Positions 47,171-63,244 of a stretch of DNA of 64,000 nt are shown here, piece by piece. A program made the translations under genes and the position numbers. This stretch comes from Acidimicrobiaceae bacterium (GTDB lineage: Bacteria; Actinomycetota; Acidimicrobiia; Acidimicrobiales; UBA8190), in NCBI GenBank assembly GCA_003151475.1, contig PLXQ01000034.1:183537-247536 (forward strand), given 5' to 3'. Each line of letters opens with the position of its first letter. Position 1 is the first letter of the stretch. Below the pieces are notes generated by a model. That model made no database searches, had not been told where the DNA came from, and saw only the letters and a list, made by a program, of their open reading frames with translations.

Positions 47171-48595
47171 ATGCAGGTCACCATCATCGGCGGCGGGAGC
47201 TACCAGTGGTCGCCCAAGCTGATCACCGACCTGCTGGCGGTGGCGCCGCTGGCCGACATGCACCTGGTGCTCGAGGACATCGACCCGGCGCCGCTCGTCA
47301 AGATGGAGGCCTACGCCCGTCTGGCCAACGAGAAGATGGGCACCAAGATGACGGTGGAGACGACCACCGACCAACGGCGCGCCGTCGACGGGGCCGACTT
47401 CGTGATCGTGACCATCTCCACCGGCGGCTTCGAGTCCATGGGCATCGACATCGACATCCCCGCCCGCTACGGCATCCGGCAGTCGGTGGGAGACAGTGTC
47501 GGTCCCGGGGGGATCAGCCGCTCCCTGCGCAACATCCCCATCTTGGTGAGCATCGGCCGGGACATGGAGCAGGGCTGCCCCGACGCCTGGATGCTGAACA
47601 TCACCAACCCCATGACCTGCCTGACCCGGTCGGTCTGCCGGGAGACGACCATCAAGACGGTGGGGCTCTGCCACGAGGTGGGCCACTTCTGCATGGACCT
47701 GGCCATCGCCTTCGGCCGGCCCCACACCGCCGTCCGGCCCACCGTGGTGGGGGTGAACCACTTCCCGGTGATCACCGTCCTCGACATCGACGGAGCCGAC
47801 GGCTTCGCCATGCTGCACGACATGCTCGATGAGCTCGGCGGTCTCGAAGCCCTGCGGCCGGGGCCGGACCGGACCGAGGCGGAGCCCTACAGCCGGGCCG
47901 ACTTCGCCCAGCGGCATGCTCTCAAGCTGACCATGCTGGAGCGCTACGGGGCTCTGCCCGGCGCCGGCGACCGCCATGTGGCGGAGTTCATCCCGTCGGC
48001 GCTGACCGAAGAATCGGGGTGGGGCGAGACATGGGGTTTCGAGCTCACCCCCATGTCGCGCCGGTTGGAGCACCAGGACGAGTTCATCGCCGAGGTCGAT
48101 GCCGTCTTGGCCGGGACGGCCGAGATGCAGACCTGGGACTCGGGCGAGATCGTGGCGCCCGTGATCGACTCGCTCCTGACCGGAACCCCCCGGGAACTGC
48201 CGGTGAACCTGCCCAACAAGGGCCAGTGCCCCGACCTGCCCGACGATGTGGTGGTGGAGTCGATCTGCGTGGTGGACGGCGACGGCATGCGCGGTCGCGA
48301 CGCCGCGCACGCCCCGGCGGCCATCACCGAGTGGGTCCGCCGGCAGGTGGCGGTGCAGGAGCTGACGGTCGAGGCCGCCGTCAGTGGCGACCGGCGGATC
48401 GCCCTGCAGGCCTTCGCCCTCGACCCCCTGGCCGGACGGGGCGATCTGCGGGTCAGCGAACAGATGGCCGACGAGCTGCTGGCCGCCACCGCCCGCTGGC
48501 TGCCGCAATTCCCGCCGGCCCCGTCCTCGTCGGCCCCGTTCGGATCGGCCCCGTCCCGCCGAGCATCGTCAGCGGCGCCGGGTACCTCGTCATGA
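47171..48595 (+). CDS. GH4-family NAD-dependent glycosidase (alpha-glucosidase/galactosidase type)
   Basis: This 474-residue GH4 enzyme has the Rossmann motif IIGGGSYQWSPKLITDLL at the N terminus, a substrate loop VSIGRDMEQGCPDAWMLNITNPMTCLTRSV near residues 122-155 and the metal ligand region GLCHEVGHFCM near residues 164-174. GVNHFPVITVLDIDG is near residue 197. GH4 enzymes use NAD and Mn to cleave glycosides through a 3-keto intermediate. The sugar cannot be fixed from the sequence. It is followed by a dehydrogenase whose start is in a duplicated block. Confidence 0.9.
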   Translation: MQVTIIGGGSYQWSPKLITDLLAVAPLADMHLVLEDIDPAPLVKMEAYARLANEKMGTKMTVETTTDQRRAVDGADFVIVTISTGGFESMGIDIDIPARYGIRQSVGDSVGPGGISRSLRNIPILVSIGRDMEQGCPDAWMLNITNPMTCLTRSVCRETTIKTVGLCHEVGHFCMDLAIAFGRPHTAVRPTVVGVNHFPVITVLDIDGADGFAMLHDMLDELGGLEALRPGPDRTEAEPYSRADFAQRHALKLTMLERYGALPGAGDRHVAEFIPSALTEESGWGETWGFELTPMSRRLEHQDEFIAEVDAVLAGTAEMQTWDSGEIVAPVIDSLLTGTPRELPVNLPNKGQCPDLPDDVVVESICVVDGDGMRGRDAAHAPAAITEWVRRQVAVQELTVEAAVSGDRRIALQAFALDPLAGRGDLRVSEQMADELLAATARWLPQFPPAPSSSAPFGSAPSRRASSAAPGTSS

Positions 48596-48616
48596 AGATC
48601 GGGTCATGAAGATCGG
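48591..48616 (+). repeat. 14-bp tandem duplication at the GH4/dehydrogenase junction
   Basis: ATGAAGATCGG occurs at 48592 and 48606. The first ATG overlaps the GH4 stop (48593-48595) and opens only a five-codon frame; the second starts the dehydrogenase. Confidence 0.9.
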
Positions 48617-49493
48617 ATTCATCGGCCTGGGGGCCATGGGACTGCCCATGACCCGGAACCTGCTGGCCGCCGGCCACGACGTGACGGTCGCCTCCCGGAG
48701 CCGTCCCCCCGTCGACGCCGCTGTCGCCTTGGGCGCCATCGATGCAGGCACTGCCGCGGAGGTGGCCACGGCCGGCGAGGTCATTATCCTCTGTGTCCCC
48801 AACTCCCCCGAGGTGGTCGAGGTGGTCGACGCCATGCTCCCCGCCCTCGGCGCCGGCACCATCGTCGTCGACTGCTCCACCATCGACCCCGATGTGGAGC
48901 GGGCCCAGCACGAGAAGGTGAGCGCCACCGGGGCCCGTTATCTCGACGGCCCCCTCTCGGGGGGAACGGTGGGGGCAGAGAAGGGGACCCTGACGGTGAT
49001 GGTGGGGGGAGACGCCGCCACCTTGGAGGACGCGGGTCCCGCCCTCGACGCCGTGGCCGGACTGGTCGTCCATGTCGGCGGCCCGGGGATGGGCCAGGTG
49101 GTGAAGCTCTGCAACAACCTGATCTACGCCGCGCAGATGGTGGCCACGGCCGAGGCCACCGCCCTGGCTTTGCGCTCCGGAGTGGACATGGCCAAGCTGC
49201 TCGAGGTTCTGCTGCACTCGACCGGCGACTGCACGGCGGTGCGGACCCGGCTGCCTGTGGCCGGCGTGGTGGCCGACAGCCCGGCGTCCAACGGTTGGAA
49301 GCCCGGCTTCATGACCGACCTGATGGCCAAGGATCTCGACCTGGCCCTCGCCTACGGGGCCCGGGCCGGCGTGCCGCTCGTGACCACGGCCACCTCCCGG
49401 CAGGTGCTCACGGCCGCCTCGACCGCCGGTTACGGCCGGGAGGACTTCTCCGCGCTGGCCAAGATCGTCCTGCGCAACGCCGGCGTGGAGTGA
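48606..49493 (+). CDS. Beta-hydroxyacid dehydrogenase (3-hydroxyisobutyrate/tartronate-semialdehyde family)
   Basis: This 295-residue protein has the NAD(P)-binding GFIGLGAMGLPMTRNL start, VDCSTIDPD, the substrate motif LDGPLSGGTVGAEKGTLTVMVGG, and a conserved Lys region GQVVKLCNNLIYAAQ near residue 168. The family reduces tartronate, methylmalonate or succinate semialdehydes and sulfolactaldehyde. In this sugar cluster a semialdehyde reductase role downstream of an aldolase is likely. The following gene starts in its stop (GTGA). Confidence 0.9.
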   Translation: MKIGFIGLGAMGLPMTRNLLAAGHDVTVASRSRPPVDAAVALGAIDAGTAAEVATAGEVIILCVPNSPEVVEVVDAMLPALGAGTIVVDCSTIDPDVERAQHEKVSATGARYLDGPLSGGTVGAEKGTLTVMVGGDAATLEDAGPALDAVAGLVVHVGGPGMGQVVKLCNNLIYAAQMVATAEATALALRSGVDMAKLLEVLLHSTGDCTAVRTRLPVAGVVADSPASNGWKPGFMTDLMAKDLDLALAYGARAGVPLVTTATSRQVLTAASTAGYGREDFSALAKIVLRNAGVE

Positions 49494-50287
49494 CCGGACC
49501 GGCTCCCGACGGCCGGCACCGGCCGTCACTGGCGCGGCTCGCCCCCCCGGCTCTGATCCTGGCCGCCGACCACCGGCCCCGGGCCGTGATGACCATCGAG
49601 GCCTACGGGCCCTATCTCGGCGCCCTCGGCGCCGCGATGGCGCACTGCGACGGCATCCTGGCCAGCCGGCAACCCTTGGAGGACCTGGTGGACTCGGGCG
49701 CCGTCGGCCCCGGGCAGCGGACCTATCTGTCCATCAACCGGACCGGTCTGGCCGGCTCCGCCTTCGAGCTCGACGACCGTCTGGTGACGAGCGTGGCCGC
49801 CGCCGCCGGCGAGGGTTTTACGGGCATCAAGCACATGACCCGGATCGATCTCGGCGACCGCCTGACCGCCCCGGCGCTGGAGCTGCTCGGCCAGGTCATC
49901 GACGATGCCCGGTCGGCCGGGATGGAGGCGATGATCGAGGCGCTCTCGTGGAGCGACGGGACCATGGCCCGGGAGACCGACGCCATCGTGGCCGCCGCCG
50001 TCATCGCCCACGACCTCGGGGCGCCGCTGCTGAAGGTCCCCGTCCCCGACGTCGCCCCCGGCCGGGAGCGGATCGCGGCGGTGGCCCGGGTGGTCGGCTC
50101 CGTCGGCGTGCCCGTGCTCTTTCTCGGCGGTCCCCGCGGTGTTTCGTCGCGTCAGGCGGTGCTCGACGAGGTCCACGACGCCATGGCCGGGGGGGCGGCG
50201 GGGATGGCCATGGGCCGGCTCGTCTTCCAGGACCCCGAGCCGGCCGAGATGGCCCGGCTGGTGGCCGACGCCGTGCACGGCCGCTGA
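49490..50287 (+). CDS. Class I aldolase-like protein (DeoC/LacD/FbaB type)
   Basis: This 265-residue TIM-barrel protein has LARLAPPALILAADHRPRAVM near the N terminus, GFTGIKHMTRIDLGDR near residue 110, IEALSW near residue 151, and the likely Schiff-base Lys in GAPLLKVPVPDVAP near residue 182, followed by VPVLFLGGPRG, the phosphate-binding loop. It fits the FbaB/LacD/DeoC class of lysine aldolases. The substrate is probably a phosphorylated ketose, made by the next gene, a kinase. The GTG at 49490 overlaps the dehydrogenase stop. It lies before a five-fold start-codon repeat. Confidence 0.75.
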   Translation: MTGPAPDGRHRPSLARLAPPALILAADHRPRAVMTIEAYGPYLGALGAAMAHCDGILASRQPLEDLVDSGAVGPGQRTYLSINRTGLAGSAFELDDRLVTSVAAAAGEGFTGIKHMTRIDLGDRLTAPALELLGQVIDDARSAGMEAMIEALSWSDGTMARETDAIVAAAVIAHDLGAPLLKVPVPDVAPGRERIAAVARVVGSVGVPVLFLGGPRGVSSRQAVLDEVHDAMAGGAAGMAMGRLVFQDPEPAEMARLVADAVHGR

Positions 50288-50290
50288 CCG

Positions 50291-50336
50291 CGGGTGACGA
50301 CGGGTGACGACGGGTGACGACGGGTGACGACGGGTG
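50291..50336 (+). repeat. 10-bp tandem repeat (five copies) at the aldolase/kinase junction
   Basis: CGGGTGACGA occurs with GTG codons at 50294, 50304, 50314, 50324 and 50334. The last is the start of the kinase. The aldolase stop is at 50285-50287. Confidence 0.9.
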
Positions 50337-51767
50337 ATCCTCACCCTCGATCTCGGTAGCTCCACCACCAAGGCCGTCGTCTGGGACCCGGGCGGCATCG
50401 GGGCCCGGGGAGAAGCGCCGCTCGAGACGTCGTTCCCGGCCGGCGGGCGCGCCGAGCAGGATCCCGGCCGCTGGTGGCCGGCGGTGGTGGCGGCCTGTGC
50501 CGGGGCCCGGGCCGAGAATCCCGAGGCCTTCGCCGCCGTCGAGGCCGTCGGCTTCGCCGCCGCCCGGCAGACCATCGTGGCTGTGTCGGGCGGCGGGGAG
50601 CCCCTCGGGCCGGCGCTGCTCTGGTCCGACCGGCGGGCCTCGGCCGAGGCCGCCCGCCTGGCCGAGAGCCTCGGGGGTGCCGAATCGGTCCACCGGCTGA
50701 CCGGCGGGGTGCTCGACGGGGCGGCGGTGGCGGCCAAAGCGGCCTGGCTGGCGGCGCACGAGCCCGATCGGCTGGCCGCCAGCCGCTGGCTGCTCACCCC
50801 CCGCGATCTGGCCGTCCTGCAGATGACGGGAAGGCCGGTGACGGACTCGAGCATGGTCTCGGCCGCCGGCCTCAGCGACCGCTCGGGGAAGCTCGTGCCC
50901 GCGCTGGTCGAGGCTCTCGGGCCCCGGCTCCCGGAGATCCTGGCCCCCGGGGCAGTGGCCGGCCCCCTCTTAGCCGGGGCCGCCGCTCAACTGGGCCTCC
51001 GTGGCGGAGTGCCGGTGGTGGTGGGGGCCGGGGACAGGGCGTGTGAGGTTCTCGGCACCGGGGCGCGACCCGAGCGGCCCATGGTCTCGTGGGGGACCAC
51101 GGCCAATTTCTCTGTCCCCGTCGGGGCATTTCCCGATCCCGTGCCCGACGGCCTCATCGTCAGCCGGGCCGCCGTCGAGGGATTTCTCTTGGAGGGCGGT
51201 CTCTCGGCCGCCGGTTCCCTGTTCAGCTGGCTGTCGGGGCTGACCGGGCTCGACCCCGAGACGCTGATGGCCCGGGCCGCGCTTTGCCCCCCCGGCGCCG
51301 GCGGGGTGATCGCCCTGCCCTGGTTCGGCGGGGCCCGGGCCCCCTGGTGGCGCGACGGGGCCCGGGGCGGCTTCGTGGGGCTGAGCTTCGATCACGACGC
51401 CGGCCATCTGGCCCGGGCCGTTCTGGAAGCGGTGGCCCGGGAGGTTCTCCGTTGCCTGCGGATCTCGGCTGCGCCGGCCGCCTCCCTCGCCCTTACCGGC
51501 GCCGATGGCACGAGAGCGCCATGGGCCGAGGTCGTCGGGGCCGTGACCGGGCTTCCCGTTGTCCGGCGCCGCTCCGGTCAGGCCGCCTCGGCCGGGGCCG
51601 CTCTCCTGGCCGCCGCTGCCATCGGCGCCGACTACGAGCTCGACGCAATGGACCCCGTCCTCGACACCGTCGTCCCCGACCGGTCGACCGTCGAGCGCTA
51701 CGCCGAGCTGACCGACGCGGCCGACGCCGCCGCCCGGGCCGTGCTCCCTCTCGGCGACGGCTCGTGA
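50334..51767 (+). CDS. FGGY-family sugar kinase (xylulokinase-like)
   Basis: This 477-residue ASKHA kinase begins LTLDLGSSTTKAVVWDPGG (phosphate-1) and contains VGFAAARQTIVAVSGGG, LWSDRRASAEAARL, GAGDRACEVLGTG (phosphate-2), MVSWGTTANF, and a C-terminal adenosine region LALTGADGTRAPWAEV. The FGGY kinases act on xylulose, gluconate, glycerol, erythritol or similar. No residue reveals the sugar. The GTG at 50334 is the last of five repeated GTGs, so earlier ones would only give short, out-of-frame peptides. It overlaps larA-like by four bases. Confidence 0.87.
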   Translation: MILTLDLGSSTTKAVVWDPGGIGARGEAPLETSFPAGGRAEQDPGRWWPAVVAACAGARAENPEAFAAVEAVGFAAARQTIVAVSGGGEPLGPALLWSDRRASAEAARLAESLGGAESVHRLTGGVLDGAAVAAKAAWLAAHEPDRLAASRWLLTPRDLAVLQMTGRPVTDSSMVSAAGLSDRSGKLVPALVEALGPRLPEILAPGAVAGPLLAGAAAQLGLRGGVPVVVGAGDRACEVLGTGARPERPMVSWGTTANFSVPVGAFPDPVPDGLIVSRAAVEGFLLEGGLSAAGSLFSWLSGLTGLDPETLMARAALCPPGAGGVIALPWFGGARAPWWRDGARGGFVGLSFDHDAGHLARAVLEAVAREVLRCLRISAAPAASLALTGADGTRAPWAEVVGAVTGLPVVRRRSGQAASAGAALLAAAAIGADYELDAMDPVLDTVVPDRSTVERYAELTDAADAAARAVLPLGDGS

Positions 51768-53023
51768 AGGAGGTCCGGCTGGCCTACGGGCGCCAGGGCC
51801 TCGTAGTGCGGGTCCCCGACGACGCCGCGGTGATCAGCCCCACCGATCTGCCGGGGCTCCCCGACGAGGCCGCCGCCGTCCTCGACGCGCTGCGGGCGCC
51901 GATCGCCGGGCCCCCGCTCGGAGATCTGATCCGCAGCGGCGGCCGGGTGGCCGTCGTCTTCCCCGACCTCACCCGACCCATGCCCAACCGGACCGTCTTA
52001 CCGCCGCTGCTGGCCGAGCTCGAGAGACTGGGGGCGGGGCCCGACCGTGTGGCACTGCTCTGTGCCACCGGGACCCACCGCCAAGCCACGGCGCCGGAGA
52101 TGGCCGAGCTGGTGGGCGAGGAGATCGTGCGCCGTTACGGCGTGCATGACCACCGGTCCGACGACGGGGCCCACGTCGAGGTGGGTGTGGTCGACGGCAG
52201 CCGGGTCCTGATCGACCCCCGCTACCTCGAGGCCGAGGTCCGGATCCTGACCGGCTTCGTCGAACCGCACTTCTTCGCCGGCTTCAGCGGCGGACCCAAA
52301 GGGGTCTGTCCCGGCCTGGCCGCCACCGAGACCATCCTGGAGGCGCACTCCCCGGCCCGGATCGCCCACGAGAAGGCCACCTGGCTCGAGACGGTGGGGA
52401 ATCCCGTCCACGACTTCGTCCGCGCCGCCGTGGCCCTGGCCCCGCCCACGCTGTCGGTCGACGTGGCCATCAACAGCCGTCGACAACTGACCGCCGTCTT
52501 CGCCGGGCCTCTGCCCGACGGCCATCGCGCCGCCTGTGCCTTCGTCGAACGGACGGCGGTGCAGCGGGTGGAGGGCCGTTTCGAGGTGGTGCTGTCCACC
52601 AACGCCGGCTTTCCCCTCGACCGGAACCTCTACCAGGCGGTGAAGGGGATGGCGGCGGCCGAGCGGGTGGTGACCGACGGCGGCACCGTGGTGATGGCCG
52701 CCGCCTGTCTCGACGGTCTGCCTGCCGGCGGTGCCTTCGCCCGCCTGCTTGCCGCCGCCGCCGACCGTGACGAGCTGGCCGACGGGACCGGCGCGTCAGA
52801 AGCCGACCGCTGGCAGGTCCAGGTCCTCGGCCGGGTCCTGCGACGCGCGGAGGTCTGGCTGCATACCGACGGCCTCGACGACGACGAGGTGAGCGCCGCC
52901 CACCTACGGCCGGTGGCCGATGTCACCGACGCCGTGGCCGAGGCACTGGCGGCGGCGGGAACGCGGGCCCGGCTCGGCGTTCTGCCTCAGGGCCCGCTCA
53001 CCGTCGTCACCGCCGCGCCCTGA
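51764..53023 (+). CDS. LarA-like nickel-dependent racemase/epimerase
   Basis: This 419-residue LarA/DUF2088 protein has DLTRPMP near residue 68 (the Asp and Arg of the cofactor site), CATGTHRQATAPEM near residue 105 with the catalytic His, and EPHFFAGFSGGPKG near residues 167-180, where the His and the Lys ten residues later match LarA H174 and K184, the lysine that holds the nickel-pincer cofactor. It could epimerise a 2-hydroxyacid or sugar acid. The larB, larC and larE cofactor genes are not in this window. The GTG at 51764 overlaps the kinase stop. Confidence 0.85.
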   Translation: MKEVRLAYGRQGLVVRVPDDAAVISPTDLPGLPDEAAAVLDALRAPIAGPPLGDLIRSGGRVAVVFPDLTRPMPNRTVLPPLLAELERLGAGPDRVALLCATGTHRQATAPEMAELVGEEIVRRYGVHDHRSDDGAHVEVGVVDGSRVLIDPRYLEAEVRILTGFVEPHFFAGFSGGPKGVCPGLAATETILEAHSPARIAHEKATWLETVGNPVHDFVRAAVALAPPTLSVDVAINSRRQLTAVFAGPLPDGHRAACAFVERTAVQRVEGRFEVVLSTNAGFPLDRNLYQAVKGMAAAERVVTDGGTVVMAAACLDGLPAGGAFARLLAAAADRDELADGTGASEADRWQVQVLGRVLRRAEVWLHTDGLDDDEVSAAHLRPVADVTDAVAEALAAAGTRARLGVLPQGPLTVVTAAP

Positions 53024-53073: not shown

Positions 53074-55302
53074 ATGAGGGACCCGCTTGTAGGGGAACAG
53101 GCGATGTTCGAGGGGGGGACGCCCCTCTTCGATTTCATCGTCCCCGACGAGTTGCTGGCGGAGGCGGTCAGCAAGAGCCGGGTCAAAGAAGACGTGGCCG
53201 ACGTGGCCATGATGCCCGGGACAGGTGAGGGCAAACCCCCGCCGCTCATGGGGATCCTGCGCCAAGGCGGTTTCTCCCCCCTCGTCCTGCTGACGGCGGC
53301 GACCCTCGTGACCGGCACCATCACCAACGGGCTGGGCATCTTAGGACCGGAGATCAAGAGCTCGTTCCATCTATCGGACGCCTCCCTCGGGGCCGTGTTC
53401 TTCGTGGGCGCCGTGGCCCAGATCGCCTGGGGGATGCCGGTGGCGGTCTTCGCCGACCGCGGCAGCCGCAAGAACGTGGCCGCCATCACCCTGCTCATCT
53501 TCTCGGTAACGGTGCCGTTCATGGCCCTGGTCCACAACGTCTGGCCTTTCGTCTTCCTCTACCTGTTGGCCGCCGTCGGGCTGGGGACGAGCGACACCGT
53601 GCACAACGCCTACCTGGCCGACGCCTATCCCACCCAGGGCCGGGCCCGCGTCTTCACCTGGCACCAGATGGGCGACCCCGTCTCGCAGACGGTGGGGATC
53701 CTCCTGGTGGGCTACATCGCCGCCGCCACCCACAACTGGCGCTGGGCCCTCGGGCTGTCTGTCGTCGGGGTACCGATCGCCATCGCCACCTTCTTCCTCC
53801 GGGAGCCCGACAAGGGCGCCAACGAGTCGAGTCACATTTTGAAGGCGGCCGGCATGGACATCGGCACCGAGCAGGAGAAGGCGCCCAAGGTCCTGATCGG
53901 CTCGGCCGTGACCCGGCTGCTGCGGATCCGGTCGCTTTACTACGAGCTCGTCGCCGTGGCCATCCTCGGCTTCGCCGGCACCGGCATCCCGCTGTTCGGC
54001 TCGTTGTACTTCCAGCGCCGCTGGCACCTGGGCGTGGCCCACCGGGCCGACGTCTTCTCGATCATCGGACTGTCCGCCTTCCTCGGGCTCCCCGTCGTCT
54101 ACCTGGTGGGCGACAGGCTCTTCCGGCGTGCCCCCGAGAAGCCGCTCGTGGTGGCCAGCGTCTGCATCGCCGTCTTCGGTGGCTTCTACAGCATCTCGCT
54201 GTACATGCCCCACCTGTGGATGGTGGTGGTCTTCCAGTTCCTGGCCCAGGCGGCGGTGGCGCCGTTGTCCATCTGCATTTTCCAGACGCTGGCGGCCACC
54301 GCCCCGCCGGAGATGCGGGCCATCTGCTTCGGGCTGTTCGGCGTCTACGCCCTCGTCTTCGGCGGTTTCGCCGGCGGCATCCTGCTCGGTGCCATCAGCG
54401 ACTCCACCAACGTGACCACCGCGCTCACCTTGATCGGCCCCGTCTGTGCCGTGGGAGGTGTGCTTCTCTACATCGGGTCACGCTACGTCCGGCGCGACAT
54501 CACCCTGGTCATCGAGGACGTCCTCGAGCGCTACGCCGAAGGCAAGAGACGCAAGGCGGGCGGCGCCATCCCGGCGCTGCAGATCCACAACCTCGACTTC
54601 TTCTACGGGACCCAGCAGGTGCTCTTCGACGTGAACCTCGAGGTGCCCGAGGGTGAGATCGTGGCTCTGCTCGGGACGAACGGTGCCGGCAAGAGCACAC
54701 TGCTGCGGGCGGTGTCGGGGCTCGACCATCCGCACCGGGGGGTGATCCGGATCTTCGGGGCCAACTGCACCTACCTCGAGCCGGAACAGATCATCGACCA
54801 ACACGTGGCCCTGCTGGTGGGCGGGAAGATGACCTTTCCCGGCCTGAGCGTGCGCGACAACCTGCGGGTGGGGGAGTTCTCGTTCCGACGCGAGAGCGCG
54901 CGGTCGCGCGCCGCGCTCGACGAGGCCGTCGCCACCTTCCCTGAGCTCGCGGCCCGCCTCGACCAACCGGCCGGCACCCTGTCCGGCGGCGAGCAGCAGA
55001 TGCTGGCGCTGGCCCGGGTCATGATGACCACCCCCAAGCTGCTCATGATCGACGAGCTCGCTCTCGGGCTGGCGCCGCTCACCGTCGACCGCCTCATGGC
55101 CATCGTCCGCCGGGTGAACGCCGACGGCGCCACCGTCATCTTGGTGGAGCAGAGCGTCAACCGGGCCATGAGCCTGGCCCGGCACGCCTTCTTCATCGAA
55201 CGCGGGGAGATCCGATTCGACGGTCCCACGGCCGAGCTGCTCGACCGGGACGATCTGCTGCGGCCCGTCTTCCTGACCGGTGCCGCGGCGGCGACGGACT
55301 GA
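53074..55302 (+). CDS. MFS permease fused to LivF-like ABC ATPase
   Basis: This 742-residue fusion has an N-terminal major-facilitator domain (about residues 60-475) with twelve predicted helices, FADRGSRKNVA (loop 2-3) and LGTSDTVHNAYLADAYP. A C-terminal LivF-type ABC ATPase runs from about residue 505. Walker A is GTNGAGKST near residue 534, the signature LSGGEQQMLALARVM near residue 635, Walker B LLMIDELALGL near residue 654, and then the switch VEQSVNRA. It would supply the LivF ATPase for the LivHM-LivG transporter downstream, with an MFS domain joined to it. The stop is nine bases before the LivHM start. Confidence 0.9.
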   Translation: MRDPLVGEQAMFEGGTPLFDFIVPDELLAEAVSKSRVKEDVADVAMMPGTGEGKPPPLMGILRQGGFSPLVLLTAATLVTGTITNGLGILGPEIKSSFHLSDASLGAVFFVGAVAQIAWGMPVAVFADRGSRKNVAAITLLIFSVTVPFMALVHNVWPFVFLYLLAAVGLGTSDTVHNAYLADAYPTQGRARVFTWHQMGDPVSQTVGILLVGYIAAATHNWRWALGLSVVGVPIAIATFFLREPDKGANESSHILKAAGMDIGTEQEKAPKVLIGSAVTRLLRIRSLYYELVAVAILGFAGTGIPLFGSLYFQRRWHLGVAHRADVFSIIGLSAFLGLPVVYLVGDRLFRRAPEKPLVVASVCIAVFGGFYSISLYMPHLWMVVVFQFLAQAAVAPLSICIFQTLAATAPPEMRAICFGLFGVYALVFGGFAGGILLGAISDSTNVTTALTLIGPVCAVGGVLLYIGSRYVRRDITLVIEDVLERYAEGKRRKAGGAIPALQIHNLDFFYGTQQVLFDVNLEVPEGEIVALLGTNGAGKSTLLRAVSGLDHPHRGVIRIFGANCTYLEPEQIIDQHVALLVGGKMTFPGLSVRDNLRVGEFSFRRESARSRAALDEAVATFPELAARLDQPAGTLSGGEQQMLALARVMMTTPKLLMIDELALGLAPLTVDRLMAIVRRVNADGATVILVEQSVNRAMSLARHAFFIERGEIRFDGPTAELLDRDDLLRPVFLTGAAAATD

Positions 55303-55311
55303 GCCGGGTCC

Positions 55312-57348
55312 GTGTCGCTGCCCCCGTCCATAATCCTCGAGGGCGCCATCCTCGGTCTCGACTACGGGCTGTTGGCCGTGGGCCTGGTCCTCATCTACCG
55401 CACCAGCCGGGTGGTGAACTTCGCCCAGGGCCAACTGGGCGTGGTGGCGGCCGTCTTCTTGGTGAAGCTCTACTACGACTTCGGCTTCAACTACTGGGTG
55501 GCGCTCGTCATCTCGGTGGCTCTGGCCGCGGCGGTGGGTGCGTTGTCCGAACTCGTCCTGCGCCGCTTGTTCAACCGGCCCCGGGTGATGGTGATGGTGG
55601 CCACCATCGGTCTGTCACAGGTGCTCTTCCTCTTCACCGTGTTCCCTTTCATCAGGCCCAAGAAGCTGTACCGGGCCTTTCCCGTGCCCATCCACTGGAC
55701 GTTCCACGTGGGCACCTTTCTCTTCTCCTCCGGTGATGTCCTCACCCTGATCGTGGCACCCGTCGTGGTGCTCGCCCTGGCCGCCTTCATCCGCTTCTCG
55801 TCGTGGGGACTGGCCATGCGGGCCATGGCGGAGAACGCCGAGTCGGCCCGGCTGTCGGGGGTGTGGGTGCGCCGGACCTCGACGGTGGCCTGGACCCTGG
55901 CCGGCGCCCTGTCCGCCGTCACCGCCGTCCTGGCGTCGCCCAGCCAGACGAGTGCGCTCACCCAGGTGCTCAGCCCCGACCTGCTCCTGCTGGCTCTGCT
56001 GGCGGCACTGATCGGGGGAATGGTCAGCCTTCCCGTGGCTTTCATCGCCGGCGTCGGCGTCGGCGTGGTGCTCGACGCGCTGCAGTGGAACATCACCAAT
56101 CCTTCGACGGGCCCCGCCACCGTTGAGCTCATCCTCTTCCTTCTCTTGCAAGGAGCGTTGCTCCTGCGGGCCGCCTCTCTGCAGAAAGGAGCCCGGATCG
56201 GCGAGAGGTCGTCGTGGGCCATGGGCACGGCCGCCTTCCGAAGAACGACCCAGGGGTTGCGCAAGAAGGTGGGGACCACGGGGGTGGGGATCAGCCTGGT
56301 GGTGGTGGCGCTGCTGCCGTTCGTGGTGGGCGTGGGGCATTCGTTTCTCATGTCGCAGATCTGCATCTACGGCGTGATCGCGCTGTCGCTGACCGTGCTC
56401 ACGGGATGGTCGGGCCAGGTGTCGCTGGGCCAGTTCGGCTTCGTGGCCGTGGGCGGCGATATCGCCTCCCACATCGGATCGGGCTTGCCGCTGATCGTGC
56501 TCCTGCCCGTCGCCGGCCTGGCCACCGCGCTGGTCTCGGTGCTGGTGGGGCTGACGGCGCTGCGCATCCGCGGTCTCTACCTGGCGGTGAGCACCCTGGG
56601 CTTCGCGCTGTTCATGCAGACGTCGGTACTGGCCACCCCGTGCTTCACCCTCCCGCTGATCCACAAGCAGATCTGCTCCGGCCTGCCCAACCCGCAGTCG
56701 ACGCTTCTGACCCGTCCGTCGCTGTTCGGCCTGAGCCTCACCTCCGAACGCGGCTTCGCCTGGTTCTCACTCGGTGTCCTCGTCGTCTCCGTGCTCATGG
56801 TGCGGGTCTGGCGCGACCGGGGTATCGCCCGCCGGCTGATCGCCGTGCGCGACAACGAGATCGCCGCCGGATCGGCCGGGATCCCCGTGGTGCGGACGAA
56901 GTTGCTCGCCTTCGCCCTCTCGGGTTTCATGGCCGGCTACGCCGGCGTCTGTCTCGCCTTCGCCACCGAGCGGATCAGCACCAGCACCTTCGATCCCACC
57001 TTCTCGATCCTGGTCGTCTCCATGGTGGTGATCGGTGGCCTCGACTCGATCCCCGGCGCGCTGCTCGGCGCGCTCTACCTGGAAGGCCTGCCCGCCATCT
57101 TCGGTTCCACGCCCACCGTCGAGTTCCTCACGAGCGGTGTCGGGCTGCTGGCCTTCATCCTCTATCTTCCGGGCGGTCTGGCCCAGTTGCTGCACAGCTT
57201 CGGTGACATCGTCTCCGACGCCGTGGCCCACCTGCGCACGCGGAACGGATCGCCACCGGTCGACGCCGGCGAGGCGGCGGCCGCCGACGCGCCCCAAGGG
57301 CACCGGAGCCCGGCCGGAGCAGGCGCTCTCTCCATGGTGGAGCCGTGA
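55312..57348 (+). CDS. Fused LivH-LivM branched-chain-type ABC permease
   Basis: This 678-residue fusion of two permeases has a LivH half (about 1-295: ILGLDYGLLAVGLVLIYRTSRVVNFAQGQLG, AMRAMAENAESARLSGV). A LivM half follows (about 330-640: CIYGVIALSLTVLTGWSGQVSLGQFGFVAVG, RLIAVRDNEIAAGSAGIPVV, then FDPTFSILVVSMVVIGGLDSIPGALLGAL). Both contain the cytoplasmic coupling loops with conserved NE/NA motifs. Such fused permeases import amino acids, small acids or amides. The GTG at 55312 follows the MFS-LivF stop by nine bases, and the stop overlaps LivG. Confidence 0.93.
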   Translation: MSLPPSIILEGAILGLDYGLLAVGLVLIYRTSRVVNFAQGQLGVVAAVFLVKLYYDFGFNYWVALVISVALAAAVGALSELVLRRLFNRPRVMVMVATIGLSQVLFLFTVFPFIRPKKLYRAFPVPIHWTFHVGTFLFSSGDVLTLIVAPVVVLALAAFIRFSSWGLAMRAMAENAESARLSGVWVRRTSTVAWTLAGALSAVTAVLASPSQTSALTQVLSPDLLLLALLAALIGGMVSLPVAFIAGVGVGVVLDALQWNITNPSTGPATVELILFLLLQGALLLRAASLQKGARIGERSSWAMGTAAFRRTTQGLRKKVGTTGVGISLVVVALLPFVVGVGHSFLMSQICIYGVIALSLTVLTGWSGQVSLGQFGFVAVGGDIASHIGSGLPLIVLLPVAGLATALVSVLVGLTALRIRGLYLAVSTLGFALFMQTSVLATPCFTLPLIHKQICSGLPNPQSTLLTRPSLFGLSLTSERGFAWFSLGVLVVSVLMVRVWRDRGIARRLIAVRDNEIAAGSAGIPVVRTKLLAFALSGFMAGYAGVCLAFATERISTSTFDPTFSILVVSMVVIGGLDSIPGALLGALYLEGLPAIFGSTPTVEFLTSGVGLLAFILYLPGGLAQLLHSFGDIVSDAVAHLRTRNGSPPVDAGEAAAADAPQGHRSPAGAGALSMVEP

Positions 57349-58247
57349 GCGAGGCCGGGCACGCATCGGGCGGCGCCCCGTCCGACGTCGCCACCGTGGC
57401 CCGCGACGATCCGGACACGACGAAGAGCGGACCCGCCCGGCTCGATATCGAGGAGGTGGTGGTGGCCTTCGGCGGTCTGCGGGCGGTGGCCGGGGTGAGC
57501 CTGGCCGTCGACGCCGGTTCGATCGTCGGGCTCATCGGGGCCAACGGGTCGGGCAAGACGACCTTGCTCGACGCCGTCTCGGGTCTGGTCTCGCCCGCGG
57601 CCGGACGGCTCCTTCTCGACCAACAGGACCTGGCCGACTACATCCCCGAGGAGCGGGCCCGTCTCGGCATGGTCCGGTCGTTCCAGGACTGCCGGCTCTA
57701 CCCCGAGTTGTCGGTGGAGGACACGCTGTTGCTGTGCGAAGACGCGCGGCACCGGATCGACGTGTTGTCCACCACCTTGCAATTGCCGTGGGCCCGGCGG
57801 GCCGAGCGGGCCAAGCGCGCCGCCGTCGACCGCGTGATCGGCTCCTTCGGGCTCGAGAGGTTCCGTCACCACTCGACGGCGCACCTGTCGACGGGTACCC
57901 GCCGGGTGGTCGACCTGGCCTCCATCGTGTTGGCCAACCCCCGCCTGCTGTTGCTCGACGAGCCCACGGCCGGGATCGCCCAGCGCGAGGCCGAGGCCTT
58001 CATCCCGCTGCTGCGCCGGCTGCACCAGGTGACCAATTCCACCATCCTCCTCGTCGAGCACGACGTCCCGCTCGTCTTCGAGCTGTGCTCGACCGTGGTC
58101 GTCATGCAGACCGGGGAGATCGTGGCCGCCGGCACGCCCGACGAGGTGCGCCGTGACCCCCGGGCCCTGTCGGCCTATCTGGGGGCGAGCGACGAGGCCA
58201 TCAACGTGTCCGGTCCGCTGGCGCCGTCGTCGGACCCGGGCGGGTGA
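57345..58247 (+). CDS. LivG-like ABC ATPase
   Basis: This 300-residue ABC ATPase has Walker A GANGSGKTTLLDAVSG near residue 64, SFQDCRLYPELSVEDT (Q-loop region), a variant signature HLSTGTRRVVDLASI near residue 182, and Walker B LLLLDEPTAGIAQREAEAF near residue 201. The STGTRR form replaces the standard SGGQ/SxGQ, a variant I associate with this transporter subtype. It pairs with LivF (fused to MFS) to drive LivHM. The GTG at 57345 overlaps the LivHM stop (GTGA), and its stop overlaps the CoA-transferase start. Confidence 0.92.
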   Translation: MSEAGHASGGAPSDVATVARDDPDTTKSGPARLDIEEVVVAFGGLRAVAGVSLAVDAGSIVGLIGANGSGKTTLLDAVSGLVSPAAGRLLLDQQDLADYIPEERARLGMVRSFQDCRLYPELSVEDTLLLCEDARHRIDVLSTTLQLPWARRAERAKRAAVDRVIGSFGLERFRHHSTAHLSTGTRRVVDLASIVLANPRLLLLDEPTAGIAQREAEAFIPLLRRLHQVTNSTILLVEHDVPLVFELCSTVVVMQTGEIVAAGTPDEVRRDPRALSAYLGASDEAINVSGPLAPSSDPGG

Positions 58248-60685
58248 CGGCGCCCGTGACCACCGGTGCGCTCGACGGCATCCGCGTGCTCGATCTGTCC
58301 CAGGGGATCGCCGGCCCCCTCGGGGTCCTGTTCCTGGCCGAACACGGGGCCGATGTCATCAAGGTCGAACCCCCCGGCGGCGACCCCTTGCGGTCCTATG
58401 AGGGAGCGCGGACCTGGAACCGCAGCCGGCGCTCGGTGATCGTCGACCTCACCACGGACGAGGGACAGACCCGGTTCCGGCGCCTGGCGGCCGGCGCCGA
58501 CGTGGTCGTCGAGAGCTTCCGCCCCGAGGTGGCCGGCCGTCTCGGCTTCGCCTACGACGACCTGCGCGCCATCGACGACCGCATCATCTTGGTGTCGTGC
58601 CCCGCCTATCCACCCGGGCACCCCTTGGCGGCGCGCCCCGCCTACGACGCCCTGGTGCAGGCCACGAGCGGCCAGATGTGGGCCCAGCCCGGCTGGCGCC
58701 CGGGCCCCATTTTCCTGCACATGCCCGTCCCCTCCATGGGGGCGGCCTTTCTCGTGAGCGCCGGAGCACTGGCGGCGCTGTCGGCGCGCCAGCGCACCGG
58801 GCGCGGGCAACACGTGCAGACGTCGCTGCTGCAAGGAGCGCTCCTCTACACGACCCAGCTCTACCAGGACGTGGAGAAAGCCCAGCCCGGCTACCACGAG
58901 CTCATGGCCAAGACGTATCCGCCCGGTATCCACCAGACCATGCTCTTCGAGTGCGCGGCGGGCGGATGGATCCACATCTCGGTCATGTCCGGGCTCACGC
59001 CGCTCAAGACCCTCGACGAGGTCATCGCCCTCGACGACGCGCCCGACGTCCTCACCTTGATGGGCCTGTCCCCGACCGAGCGCGCCGAGCTGGATGTCCG
59101 GCGCCGGCAGAAAATGCGGTCATGGGACCGCGACGAGCTGGTGGAGGAGCTACGGCGGGCCAACCATGCGGCCGAGGCGGTGGTCCCGGCGCACGAGGTG
59201 CTCCGTCATGTCCAGACCGTGGCCAACCACACGGTGGCCACCGTGCACGATCCGGACATCGGCGACCTCCGGCAGATGGGCGTCCCTATCCACCTCCTCG
59301 GCACCCCGGGGGAGGTCCGGGGCCCCCAACCGCGTCCCGGTGAGCACACCGACGATGTGATGGGGTCGCTCGATGGCCCCGCACCGGAAGGTGCCACCGA
59401 TGCCGGCGCCGGCGCCGGCGCCGGCGCCGGACCGGCGGTGGCGGGGGCGTCGGGGGGTTCGTCTTCTGCGTTCGCCCTCGGCGGCATCCGTGTGATCGAT
59501 TTCGGCCAGTACCTGGCCGGACCCTTCGGTCCCATGATCCTCTCCGACCTCGGTGCCGATGTCATCAAGATCGAGCCGGTGAAGGGTGACTCGATGCGCT
59601 TCAGCGCCAAGCCGTTCATCGGCTGCCAGCGCGGCAAGCGCTCGCTGGCGCTCGACCTCAAACATCCGTTGGGCCTGGAGGCGGCCACGCGGCTGGTGGC
59701 CGGGGCCGATGTCGTGCACCACAACATGACCCGCGGCGTGGCCACCCGTCTCGGCATCGACTACGCCGCCTGCCGGGGAGTGCGGCCGGAAATCATCTAC
59801 TGCAACACCTACGCCTACGGTCTGGAGGACCCGCTCGGGCGCTTCGGCGGGCTCGACCCTCTCTACCAGGCGTCGTCGGGCATCGAGTACGAAGCGGGCG
59901 CCGTCCACGCCGGCAACGATCCTCTGTACCTGCGCTTCGGGATGTGTGACACGGCCAACGCCATGCTGTCGGTGGTCGGCGTCTTACTGGCTCTCGTCCA
60001 CCGGGCCCGCACCGGGGAAGGCCAGGAATTGTGGACGTCGCTGCACGACGGGGGCATCGTCTTCACCTCCGACGCGTGGACGGGGCCCGACGGCGCCGTG
60101 TGGGACCGGCCGCATCTCGACGCCGGCCTGCACGGAACCGACGCCCTCTACCGGCTGTACCGCGCGGCGGAGGAGGGGTGGATCTGCGTGGCGGCCGTGA
60201 CCGACGACCAGTGGCGAGGGCTGTGCGCAGCGCTGGATCTCGACGAACTCGCAGATGACGAGCGCTTCTCCTCTCCGGCAACCCGGCGCCAGGGGCGCCA
60301 GGTGTTGGAGCAACGGCTGCAGGAGGCGTTCATGACGAAGCCGGCCGCCCGGTGGTCGGCCATCCTCGACGACGCCGGTGTCCCCAACGAAGTACCCGTC
60401 GACACCGACGACGGCCGGACGTTTCTGCGCGACGAGGTCAACGCGTCGCTCGGACTCGTCGCCGACTACGAGCACCCGATCCTCGGCCGCCTGCGCCAGT
60501 TCGGCCAGCTCATCCAGATGTCGGACACGCCCGGTCGGATCGCCGGTCCGCCTCCCCTCGTAGGGCAGCACACACGCCTACTGCTGCGCGACGTCGGCTA
60601 CCGCGACGGCGACATCGATGCCCTCATCGCCGACGGCGTCGCCTACGAGCCCGACGACACCTACGGCGAGCGTTTCGTCACCTGA
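58244..60685 (+). CDS. Tandem-domain CaiB/BaiF CoA-transferase
   Basis: This 813-residue protein has two family III CoA-transferase domains. The first, about 1-370, contains ADVIKVEPPGGDPLRSY and the active-site Asp in RPAYDALVQATSG near residue 133. The second, about 405-800, contains GADVIKIEPVKGDS and the Asp in FGGLDPLYQASSG near residue 537. Both keep the Asp that forms the acyl intermediate. A GC-rich linker encodes alternating Ala-Gly (59402-59430). It overlaps livG by four bases, so its product activation is tied to the transporter. Family enzymes move CoA between acids such as carnitine derivatives, oxalate or bile acids. Confidence 0.92.
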   Translation: MTAPVTTGALDGIRVLDLSQGIAGPLGVLFLAEHGADVIKVEPPGGDPLRSYEGARTWNRSRRSVIVDLTTDEGQTRFRRLAAGADVVVESFRPEVAGRLGFAYDDLRAIDDRIILVSCPAYPPGHPLAARPAYDALVQATSGQMWAQPGWRPGPIFLHMPVPSMGAAFLVSAGALAALSARQRTGRGQHVQTSLLQGALLYTTQLYQDVEKAQPGYHELMAKTYPPGIHQTMLFECAAGGWIHISVMSGLTPLKTLDEVIALDDAPDVLTLMGLSPTERAELDVRRRQKMRSWDRDELVEELRRANHAAEAVVPAHEVLRHVQTVANHTVATVHDPDIGDLRQMGVPIHLLGTPGEVRGPQPRPGEHTDDVMGSLDGPAPEGATDAGAGAGAGAGPAVAGASGGSSSAFALGGIRVIDFGQYLAGPFGPMILSDLGADVIKIEPVKGDSMRFSAKPFIGCQRGKRSLALDLKHPLGLEAATRLVAGADVVHHNMTRGVATRLGIDYAACRGVRPEIIYCNTYAYGLEDPLGRFGGLDPLYQASSGIEYEAGAVHAGNDPLYLRFGMCDTANAMLSVVGVLLALVHRARTGEGQELWTSLHDGGIVFTSDAWTGPDGAVWDRPHLDAGLHGTDALYRLYRAAEEGWICVAAVTDDQWRGLCAALDLDELADDERFSSPATRRQGRQVLEQRLQEAFMTKPAARWSAILDDAGVPNEVPVDTDDGRTFLRDEVNASLGLVADYEHPILGRLRQFGQLIQMSDTPGRIAGPPPLVGQHTRLLLRDVGYRDGDIDALIADGVAYEPDDTYGERFVT

Positions 60686-60737: not shown

Positions 60738-61607
60738 TCAGGCCGACGGGGTGAGCGGGCGGGCGGGGCCGTAGGGACGGGGACCGCGCAGCGTCACCCG
60801 GTGGGCGATGCGCAGGGCGTCGCCGTAGTCGTCGAGGGCGTAATGCATGGTGGCCCGGTTATCCCAGAAAGCGACGGCGCCCACCGTCCAGCGGAAGCGG
60901 CAGGCGAATTCGGGACGTTGGCAGTGGCGGTAGAGCAGGTCGAGCAGGGCGGTGCTCTCGAGAGGAGAGAAGCCCTCGACGAAACGCGTGAACTGCGAGT
61001 TGACGAAGAGGCCGTTGCGGCCCGTCTCGGGATGGGTACGCACCACCGGATGCGAGGTGGGTAGCAATTTCTCGTGCCGCTTGCCGTCCCATTCGTAGCC
61101 GCCGTTGGCCTCGACGTCGGCGGCGAACCAGGGATCGTGGTGCCAGGCGATGAGTCCGTCGCAGAACGTGCGCATGGGTTCGGACAGGGCGTCGTAGGCG
61201 GCCTGCAGGCTCACCCACATGGTGTCGCCTCCGACGGTGGGTGCTTCGCGCATGTGGAGGATCGAGCCGAGCGGAGGCGTGGCCAGGAAGGTGACGTCGG
61301 TGTGCCACCACGAGGCGCGGTCCTCGCGTCCGTCGATGGGGAGCACCTCGGGATGGCCCTCGAGGGAGGCGATCACCGGATGCGCCGGCGTGACCTCACC
61401 GAATTGGCGGGCGAAGTCGGTCTGGACCTCGGGGCTCAGGTCCTGATCGGGAAAGAACAGAACGAGATGGTGCGCCAGGGCGGCCCGGACCTGGGCCACC
61501 ACCGCCTCTCCCAGTGGCCGCGCCAGATCGAGGCCGTGGATCTCGGCCCCGATGACTGGGGATATCGGTCTGATGTCCAGTTCGGTCACGATAACCACGT
61601 CGACCAT
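60738..61607 (-). CDS. TauD/TfdA family Fe(II)/2-oxoglutarate dioxygenase (second copy)
   Basis: This 289-residue paralogue of the protein at 34839 has the iron-binding HxD in WWHTDVTFLATPP near residue 101, GGDTMWVSLQAAYDAL, HPETGRNGLFVNSQF and the distal His in WDNRATMHYALDDYG. It lies opposite and convergent to the CoA-transferase and is divergent from the LivJ-like gene, in the middle of the transport cluster. That suggests it may act on the imported compound, perhaps a sulfonate, sulfate ester or aryloxy compound, which is inference. The start is at 61607, or at the GTG at 61589. Confidence 0.9.
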   Translation of the reverse strand: MVDVVIVTELDIRPISPVIGAEIHGLDLARPLGEAVVAQVRAALAHHLVLFFPDQDLSPEVQTDFARQFGEVTPAHPVIASLEGHPEVLPIDGREDRASWWHTDVTFLATPPLGSILHMREAPTVGGDTMWVSLQAAYDALSEPMRTFCDGLIAWHHDPWFAADVEANGGYEWDGKRHEKLLPTSHPVVRTHPETGRNGLFVNSQFTRFVEGFSPLESTALLDLLYRHCQRPEFACRFRWTVGAVAFWDNRATMHYALDDYGDALRIAHRVTLRGPRPYGPARPLTPSA

Positions 61608-61747
61608 GGTGCCTTAGTCGCCCTCCGGCCACAACCCGTTGGGTGTGTCGGAGCGGGGCCGCCTATCGTGTGCGACCGGCGAAGCGCTCGCCGCTTGTTG
61701 ACTGGGCTCGACAGCGGTGGGTGCCCGGCGACCAGGGAGTGTGGGCG

Positions 61748-63244
61748 ATGGCGAGGTCGGGATCCGATGGTGTGACCGGTGCGGGGCGAGGCCGGGGACG
61801 TCGACGGAAGAGTCACCGGATCGGTGTCCTCGCCACCGCCGTCATCGTGGCCGGAGTCGCCGTGCCCGTGACATCGGCGACGGCGGCGACATCGGCAGCC
61901 GTCCGGACGCTCGACAACGCCAGCCGCAGTAGCCGAGGGGTCACCGCCACCAAGATCAACGTCGTCTTCCCCGTGTCGAACCTCACCACCTTGTCGTCGA
62001 ACTTCGGATTCGCCGGCGATGCCGAGTTCGCCGCCCAGAACAAGGCCATCCACACCTACGTGAACGCCGTCAACGCCCACGGCGGCATTAACGGGCGCAA
62101 GATCAACCCCATCATCGTCAGCTTCGACCCCACCAACGAAGCGGGCATGCGGGCCCTGTGCAAGCAGTGGACCGAGGGAAGTCCAGCGGTCTTCGCCGTG
62201 GTGGACGGACTCGGGTCGTGGACGGGCGACAACGAGCTGTGCATCACCCAGGAAGGCCACACCCCCTTCATCGGGCAGTGGACCACGACCACCAACTGGA
62301 CCAAGTTGGGCGCTCCCTACCTGTGGTGGACCGGCCCCGACCAGGCGTCGATCCTCGCCACCCTGGTGGCCTGGGCCAAAGGGGCGCACTTGATAGGCGG
62401 AAACCGGAAGCTGGGCATCGTGGCCGGGGACCGCGCCAGCGACCAGAAGGCCCTGAAGTCCTATCTGCTGCCCGATCTCAAGCGGGCCGGTATCAGCGCA
62501 GCGATGGTCGAGACCATCCCCGCCAATCCCTCGGACACGGCCTCGACCGGTTCGGCCGCACCTCTGATCGTGCAGCACCTGCAGGCGGCCGGCATCAATT
62601 CCGTGATCCCCCTGATGCCGTTCAATGCGCTGTTCCCCTACCTTCAGGCCGAGGCCCAGCAGAATTACTACCCCAAGCTGCTTCTGTCGGATTACGAGGG
62701 TTCCATCAATGTCACCCTCGGGCTCATCCCGACGCCCTACGAGAAGGAGCTGAACGGGCAGGAGGGCATCACGGCTGAGACATTGGGTGGCGTAGACGGG
62801 CCGCCGTCGTTGGTGGGCAAGGGCGGCTACGACGCCGGTGTGGCGAACTGCGACAAGATCTGGCACGCGGCGAATCCCAAGCCTATTTCAGGACAGACCC
62901 TCATCCACGGTGAGGCGCCGTCGCCTTATATAGAGGAGCAGGGGCCCACCGCCGGATGGTGCCAAGGGATCGACCTGTTCGCCACGGCGGCGAAGAAGGC
63001 CGGGCGCAACCTGACGCGGCGCAGTTTCGTCGAGGCCATGGCCGGCATCAAGAACTACACGGGCACGTACTCACCGACCTTGAGCTACGGGCCGGGCAAG
63101 TTCGCCGGACCCGACGACTATCAGGTCGTCCAGCTACACAACAACGTCCCGCCGTCCTCGGCGTGCGCGCTCACGTACCAGAAGATCACGCAGGGAACCT
63201 GCTGGCGCGTGATCCAGAGCTGGAAGCCCCTTGTCACCTCCTGA
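61748..63244 (+). CDS. LivJ-like periplasmic substrate-binding protein
   Basis: This 498-residue extracytoplasmic protein has an Arg-rich N terminus and a signal segment (GVLATAVIVAGVAVPVTSATA), then a type I periplasmic-binding fold: TKINVVFPVSNLTTL, GGINGRKINPIIVSFDPTNEAGMRALCKQW, LGIVAGDRASDQKALKSYLLP. It pairs with the MFS-LivF, LivHM and LivG proteins upstream. It is longer than typical LivJ (about 380). Several cysteines may form disulfides. The ATG at 61748 is chosen because AGGGAG lies eight bases before it; a GTG at 61739 is an alternative. Confidence 0.9.
   Translation: MARSGSDGVTGAGRGRGRRRKSHRIGVLATAVIVAGVAVPVTSATAATSAAVRTLDNASRSSRGVTATKINVVFPVSNLTTLSSNFGFAGDAEFAAQNKAIHTYVNAVNAHGGINGRKINPIIVSFDPTNEAGMRALCKQWTEGSPAVFAVVDGLGSWTGDNELCITQEGHTPFIGQWTTTTNWTKLGAPYLWWTGPDQASILATLVAWAKGAHLIGGNRKLGIVAGDRASDQKALKSYLLPDLKRAGISAAMVETIPANPSDTASTGSAAPLIVQHLQAAGINSVIPLMPFNALFPYLQAEAQQNYYPKLLLSDYEGSINVTLGLIPTPYEKELNGQEGITAETLGGVDGPPSLVGKGGYDAGVANCDKIWHAANPKPISGQTLIHGEAPSPYIEEQGPTAGWCQGIDLFATAAKKAGRNLTRRSFVEAMAGIKNYTGTYSPTLSYGPGKFAGPDDYQVVQLHNNVPPSSACALTYQKITQGTCWRVIQSWKPLVTS

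Follow-up and report, generated by a model that had tools for sequence, protein, structure and literature searches.

ABC and MFS proteins are among the largest superfamilies of transporters, and they draw on different sources of energy. In the window, by which we mean the whole analysed stretch of 64,000 nucleotides from an Acidimicrobiaceae bacterium (contig PLXQ01000034.1), one reading frame holds a major facilitator superfamily (MFS) permease followed by the ATPase LivF. The question raised by this locus is whether such a gene is real and, if it is, what its MFS half does beside the importer genes that follow it.

The fusion gene and its importer partners

The 742-codon frame of the fusion, located at 53074-55302 on the forward strand, is open throughout, with no internal stop in its translation. 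The parts of the gene and the genes downstream of it are the following:

53074..55302, +, MFS-LivF fusion ORF (P0001), 742 aa (ORF list, translation, Pfam, NCBIfam)
53074..53253, +, N-terminal stretch ahead of the MFS domain, residues 1-60 (alignment consensus)
53254..54540, +, Spinster-like MFS domain, residues 61-489 (Pfam, profile comparison)
54541..54576, +, short MFS-LivF linker (distances between domain-model ends)
54577..55275, +, LivF ATPase, residues 502-734 (Pfam, NCBIfam; high pLDDT in the model)
55312..57348, +, LivH-LivM permeases fused in one protein (BPD_transp_2, PF02653, twice)
57345..58247, +, LivG ATPase, 4-base overlap with LivHM (Pfam, NCBIfam)
58244..60685, +, double CaiB-type CoA-transferase, 4-base overlap with LivG (Pfam, NCBIfam)
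60738..61607, -, TauD-type dioxygenase (homology)
61643..63244, +, Peripla_BP_6 binding protein (Pfam)

In regard to the fusion itself, Pfam matched MFS_1 to residues 75-424 (E 1e-33) and ABC_tran to residues 518-661 (E 4e-28). The MFS_1 profile covers the MFS domain and motif A is present, which places this half in the major facilitator superfamily. Among the NCBIfam models, the ATPase part is nearest to UrtE/LivF (residues 502-734), with scores under the equivalog cut-offs, and Walker A (GTNGAGKS), the signature (LSGGEQQ) and Walker B with the catalytic Glu (MIDE) can all be read directly in it. A weakly conserved P-G-x-G...LR motif in the alignment consensus closes the N-terminal stretch. 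A preliminary description of this DNA had proposed a complete MFS domain and an intact LivF in one ORF, which the Pfam matches, the ATPase motifs and the open frame bear out; a stop or frameshift between the two domains was looked for in the 742-codon frame, and none was found.

The protein at 55312-57348 is matched by the LivM and LivH models of NCBIfam, with scores under the cut-off. As in known HAAT importers (LivFGHMJ/K, UrtABCDE), two BPD_transp_2 permease domains are combined with LivG and LivF, both with Walker and signature motifs, and with a nearby Peripla_BP_6 protein (61643-63244), the likely receptor of the importer. The locus differs from those systems in the N-terminal MFS domain borne by its LivF, and in that the permeases, and sometimes LivG, are also fused; once, a single 1728-aa chain encoded by one frame unites all five modules, LivH, LivM, MFS, LivF and LivG, and thereby a complete importer core together with MFS (L204:4374-9560). 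Judged from gene order and domain content, the fusion's LivF belongs with the adjacent LivHM-LivG, a predicted HAAT-type importer. The earlier expectation that LivF serves this importer agrees with the tight operon and with the neighbourhood of other fusions. LivH, LivM and LivG lie within 6 kb and on the same strand in 81 of 84 MFS-LivF ORFs, a count that describes fusions and not all Liv operons, the fusion having served as query in the search for these loci; the three exceptions (L153, L154, L219) are truncated by the end of the contig or stretch. Three layouts recurred in the first 20 loci opened and in later ones: type A, that of the window, with MFS-LivF / LivH-LivM / LivG; type B, with MFS-LivF / LivH-LivM-LivG; and type C, with LivH-LivM / MFS-LivF-LivG.

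Distribution and descent of the fusion

The same domain order was sought in other genomes. Among 395 genomes of the class, 115 had a match to the fusion protein at E<=1e-60, and near-full-length places (query about 1-680, open frame) numbered at least 140 in at least 100 genomes, with the MFS part conserved. The gene thus genuinely joins a secondary transporter to the ATPase of an ABC importer; it is intact, and the arrangement is widely conserved. An artefact of assembly or gene calling that joined two genes might be suspected in a genome as fragmented as that of the window (81 contigs), but such an explanation is extremely improbable, since the open-frame fusion recurs in so many genomes of the class and the named isolate Embleya sp. 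NBC_00888 carries two fusions on one complete replicon. A chance or artefactual origin was ruled out by this conservation, and an insertion unique to the window's genome by the presence of the same fusion at other loci. Within the window's own genome (4.55 Mb), 67 places match, but the fusion alone matches in the MFS part, all remaining matches beginning at query residue 455 or beyond.

At E<=1e-35, the MFS profile was matched in 22 of 396 genomes of the phylum sample, some of these matches being free-standing MFS genes, and in 36 of 151 genomes of the Chloroflexota sample. Of 17 Chloroflexota loci opened, 14 had a free-standing MFS gene and showed no Liv gene over the stretch retrieved; the other three, all from a single genome (G803), were fusions with LivH/M/G alongside. 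The viral collection searched held no relatives of the fusion; among 821 phage records, the best five match the ATPase part only, and none has a single place covering 80% of the query. The best 80 loci in a whole-protein search of genome contigs match the LivF part only, hence the small number of named relatives. In the open-access literature searched, there was no report of an MFS-LivF or MFS-ABC fusion, although an earlier notice is possible.

All 88 fused MFS domains fall into a single clade (support 0.991) in a FastTree phylogeny of MFS domains, for which a Chloroflexota sequence was chosen manually as the root, and the nearest outgroup of this clade is a free-standing MFS of the window's phylum (L216, support 1.0). 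Another free-standing MFS (L209:6644-9559) nests within the fused clade, with local support of 0.631 and support of 0.994 and 0.962 at higher nodes; no Liv genes are present in the surrounding 17 kb, and it is likely to be a domain set free from a fusion. The tree of the LivH+M+F+G core, in which L218 forms a long branch, groups operons without MFS (L210, L212-L215) with the type-C clade (support 0.903). Taken together, the single MFS clade and the position of these operons suggest one gain of MFS followed by later loss, while the core tree alone would also allow two gains. The operons without MFS include single-chain LivH-LivM-LivF-LivG importers of 1309-1322 aa (L212:6414-10364, L213:6956-10882, L214:6643-10608), and as these cousins retain the whole LivHMFG importer, the ABC part can function without MFS.

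Distances between MFS domains and between LivHM proteins are related with r=0.87 over 81 operons. Values of dN/dS for the MFS part ranged from 0.007 to 0.40 in every listed pair that could be computed, with some pairs saturated, and the fused MFS is under purifying selection. The replacement of DEP by DEL after Walker B was considered as a mark of the fusion and rejected, as several MFS-free LivF proteins near the clade share DEL. Two adjacent MFS-LivF / LivHMG operons occur in a single genome (L129:1907-16113), and in Pseudomonas sp. CFBP 13711 a free-standing MFS (L055:3252-4607), which scores 198 bits against the fused-MFS profile, lies some 2-5 kb away from a Liv operon encoded on the opposite strand.

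Coupling residues and the possible role of the MFS half

Among solved structures, the profile comparison puts the Spinster protein HnSpns (6e8j, E 5.4e-41) nearest to the MFS part, followed by other Spinster proteins and the D-galactonate transporter DgoT; the single-sequence match to the Spns structure (E 5.2e-7) covers query residues 27-157 only. In HnSpns, according to its published account (PMC9440201), the proton switch is Glu129 in TM4, Asp41 in TM1 is a second proton site and Arg42, also in TM1, a putative substrate site, Arg122 in TM4 is a buried charge, and the relay of motif A consists of Asp87-Arg91-Asp142. By visual mapping onto the profile alignment, Glu129, Asp41, Arg42 and Arg122 correspond to L170, I83, T84 and Y163 of the fusion, and the relay to D128-R132-D183:

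53320..53325, +, I83-T84, places of HnSpns Asp41/Arg42 (TM1), charges lost (profile alignment, residue counts)
53455..53469, +, D128-R132 of motif A, kept, with D183 at 53620-53622 (alignment, residue counts)
53560..53583, +, Y163 to L170, places of HnSpns Arg122/Glu129 (TM4), charges lost (profile alignment, residue counts)

The window's protein lacks all four coupling residues, so the Spinster network is absent from it. At the place of Glu129, an acid is found in three of the 88 fused copies, 66 having K, Q or R, and in 16 of 18 free-standing relatives; these residue counts are not independent events, as the sequences share descent. The MFS half appears to have lost the proton switch used by its free-standing relatives. 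The motif A relay is retained in the fused copies (D128 in 81, R132 in 88 and D183 in 87 of 88), as in HnSpns. The fused MFS differs from the Spinster protein in being joined to an ATPase, in the lack of an acid where HnSpns has Glu129 (85 of 88 copies) and, in type A, in the changed places of Asp41, Arg42 and Arg122. In types B and C, position 80 is acidic (as it is in 77 of the 88 fused copies taken together) and position 163 is mostly Arg (62 of 88), whereas the six type-A proteins, the window's included, have neither. Charged residues in the TM cores average 1.8 per protein in type A, 6.4 in B, 7.8 in C and 6.4 in free-standing relatives, with core limits set by hand from a low-confidence model and hydropathy.

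Measured between domain-model ends, the MFS-LivF linker has 9-12 residues in 80 of 81 homologues and 27 in the remaining one. With ends corrected, the standard deviation of its length is 2.4 residues (n=88), compared with 16.9 for LivF-LivG (n=36), 9.4 for LivM-LivG (n=53) and 2.8 for LivH-LivM (n=92). In the predicted structure (mean pLDDT 61.9), LivF is modelled with high confidence and the MFS half mostly under 60. TM12 runs there as one continuous, low-confidence helix to residue 494, which makes a helical linker no more than tentative. Foldseek matches were set aside as evidence for MFS, the model being good for LivF only.

According to the mechanism proposed here, a Spinster-like MFS would have been built once, early in the lineage, into a subunit of a HAAT-type (LivHMGF) importer, and then kept. 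LivHM-LivG would import a sugar-derived or carboxylate solute received from the adjacent binding protein, with LivF and LivG providing the power. The MFS bundle would be placed beside LivHM, its last helix passing through the short linker into LivF, so that its rocker-switch state would be mechanically linked to the ATPase and could serve a sensory or regulatory role; in the window's subfamily, it would not pump by means of protons. The MFS would then be a built-in sensor or regulatory module tied to LivF, at most a passive path, a proposal that we hold to be the most likely one and to which we give an even chance of being right. It is consistent with the presence of the fusion in at least 100 of 395 genomes, the near-constant linker, the importer genes alongside, purifying selection on the MFS, the kept motif A, the switch acid replaced in 85 of 88 copies and the MFS-free LivHMFG cousins. 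On the other hand, the freed L209 copy, devoid of Liv genes in the surrounding 17 kb, looks as if such a domain had a use by itself, as one would expect of a transporter more than of a regulator, and the acid at position 80, within the dense TM1/TM4 charge network of types B and C, could be a relocated proton site. The constancy of the linker could also come partly from shared descent, and LivH-LivM linkers are constant as well.

The preliminary description had envisaged two coupled transport modes, or export during import. The fusion, the intact LivF and the association with the importer are borne out, but no result shows a second, active mode, and a coupling of two modes is only partly supported, as 85 of 88 copies have no acid at the proton-switch place and the window's subfamily lacks the other coupling residues; export during import found no support in any result. 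A related explanation, which we regard as realistic though probably not the correct one, is that two working transporters are tethered, the ABC part importing with high affinity and the MFS part carrying that solute or a similar one, by proton coupling in types B and C and as a uniporter in type A. Purifying selection, the kept motif A, the many membrane charges in types B and C, the persistence of a freed copy without Liv genes and the presence of the sugar-acid symporter DgoT among the next-best solved relatives would all fit such a pair, whereas the missing switch acid, the lack of all four coupling residues in the window's protein and a constant linker length, which a mere tether does not need, speak against it. 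Coupling residues have been lost, most of all in type A, and the LivHMFG core exists without MFS; both could also indicate an inert anchor that merely holds LivF at the membrane, with no conformational role. We consider this unlikely, as the gate residues of motif A, whose function lies in conformational change, hardly vary, and a domain of 12 helices would be a costly way to hold an ATPase that docks on LivHM in any case. Finally, the MFS could have switched its energy source, its rocker-switch being driven by ATP at LivF/LivG through the short fixed linker. This is a variant that overlaps both the regulatory-module and the two-transporter readings, and a very improbable one; if true, an ATP-powered MFS transporter would operate beside LivHM in one complex.

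The use of an MFS fold for sensing instead of transport is known from transceptors such as Snf3/Rgt2 and UhpC; these are not known to carry an ATPase fusion, and the resemblance to the proposed regulatory module is by analogy only. Fusions of MFS proteins to CBS, CNBD, PAS and UspA domains are described in PMC10710835, where Willson et al. 2019 is cited. An MFS protein has gained an extra domain there as well, but in our case this domain is an ATPase subunit that belongs to a different transporter. An old and stable ABC-MFS fusion beside a full importer, with a changed MFS proton switch, makes it testable whether one transporter can become the regulator, or the driven part, of another. In annotation, such genes could be named as MFS transporter or as LivF alone.

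Neighbouring genes and the possible solute

Upstream of the fusion, five genes in a row (47171-53023) resemble a pathway for a sugar or sugar acid:

47171..48595, +, GH4 glycosidase, nearest solved relative LplD alpha-galacturonidase (homology)
48594..49493, +, beta-hydroxyacid dehydrogenase, 3-hydroxyisobutyrate/tartronate semialdehyde type (homology)
49295..50287, +, Cgl0159/DeoC-type aldolase ORF, homology from near 49556 (Pfam, homology)
50334..51767, +, FGGY carbohydrate kinase (homology)
51089..53023, +, LarA-type racemase ORF, homology from near 51773 (Pfam, NCBIfam)

The LarA gene is probably shorter than its ORF, given where its homology begins. Neighbours were counted over 79 operon loci, the window's own operon being one of the six of type A. 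Homologues of the GH4 glycosidase, the FGGY kinase and the beta-hydroxyacid dehydrogenase adjoin five of the six type-A operons, compared with one, one and two, respectively, of the 73 others; the type-A locus without these three is L120. LarA and TauD homologues adjoin three of six type-A operons and none of the 73 others, and a Peripla_BP_6 homologue adjoins all six.

With such neighbours (GH4, FGGY kinase and beta-hydroxyacid dehydrogenase), "branched-chain amino acid" is a doubtful, probably wrong, name for the substrate of the window's subfamily. Our best guess from the neighbouring genes is that the type-A solute is sugar-derived, for instance a uronide or other glycoside. Sulfoquinovose was weighed on account of the GH4 enzyme, the DeoC/LacD-type aldolase, the reductase and TauD, and was dropped as unproven; the GH4 protein is nearest to a galacturonidase, and the reductase to 3-hydroxyisobutyrate dehydrogenase rather than sulfolactaldehyde reductase. 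On the other side of the importer genes, the protein encoded at 58244-60685, whose gene overlaps the stop of LivG, has 813 aa and two CaiB-type CoA-transferase domains.
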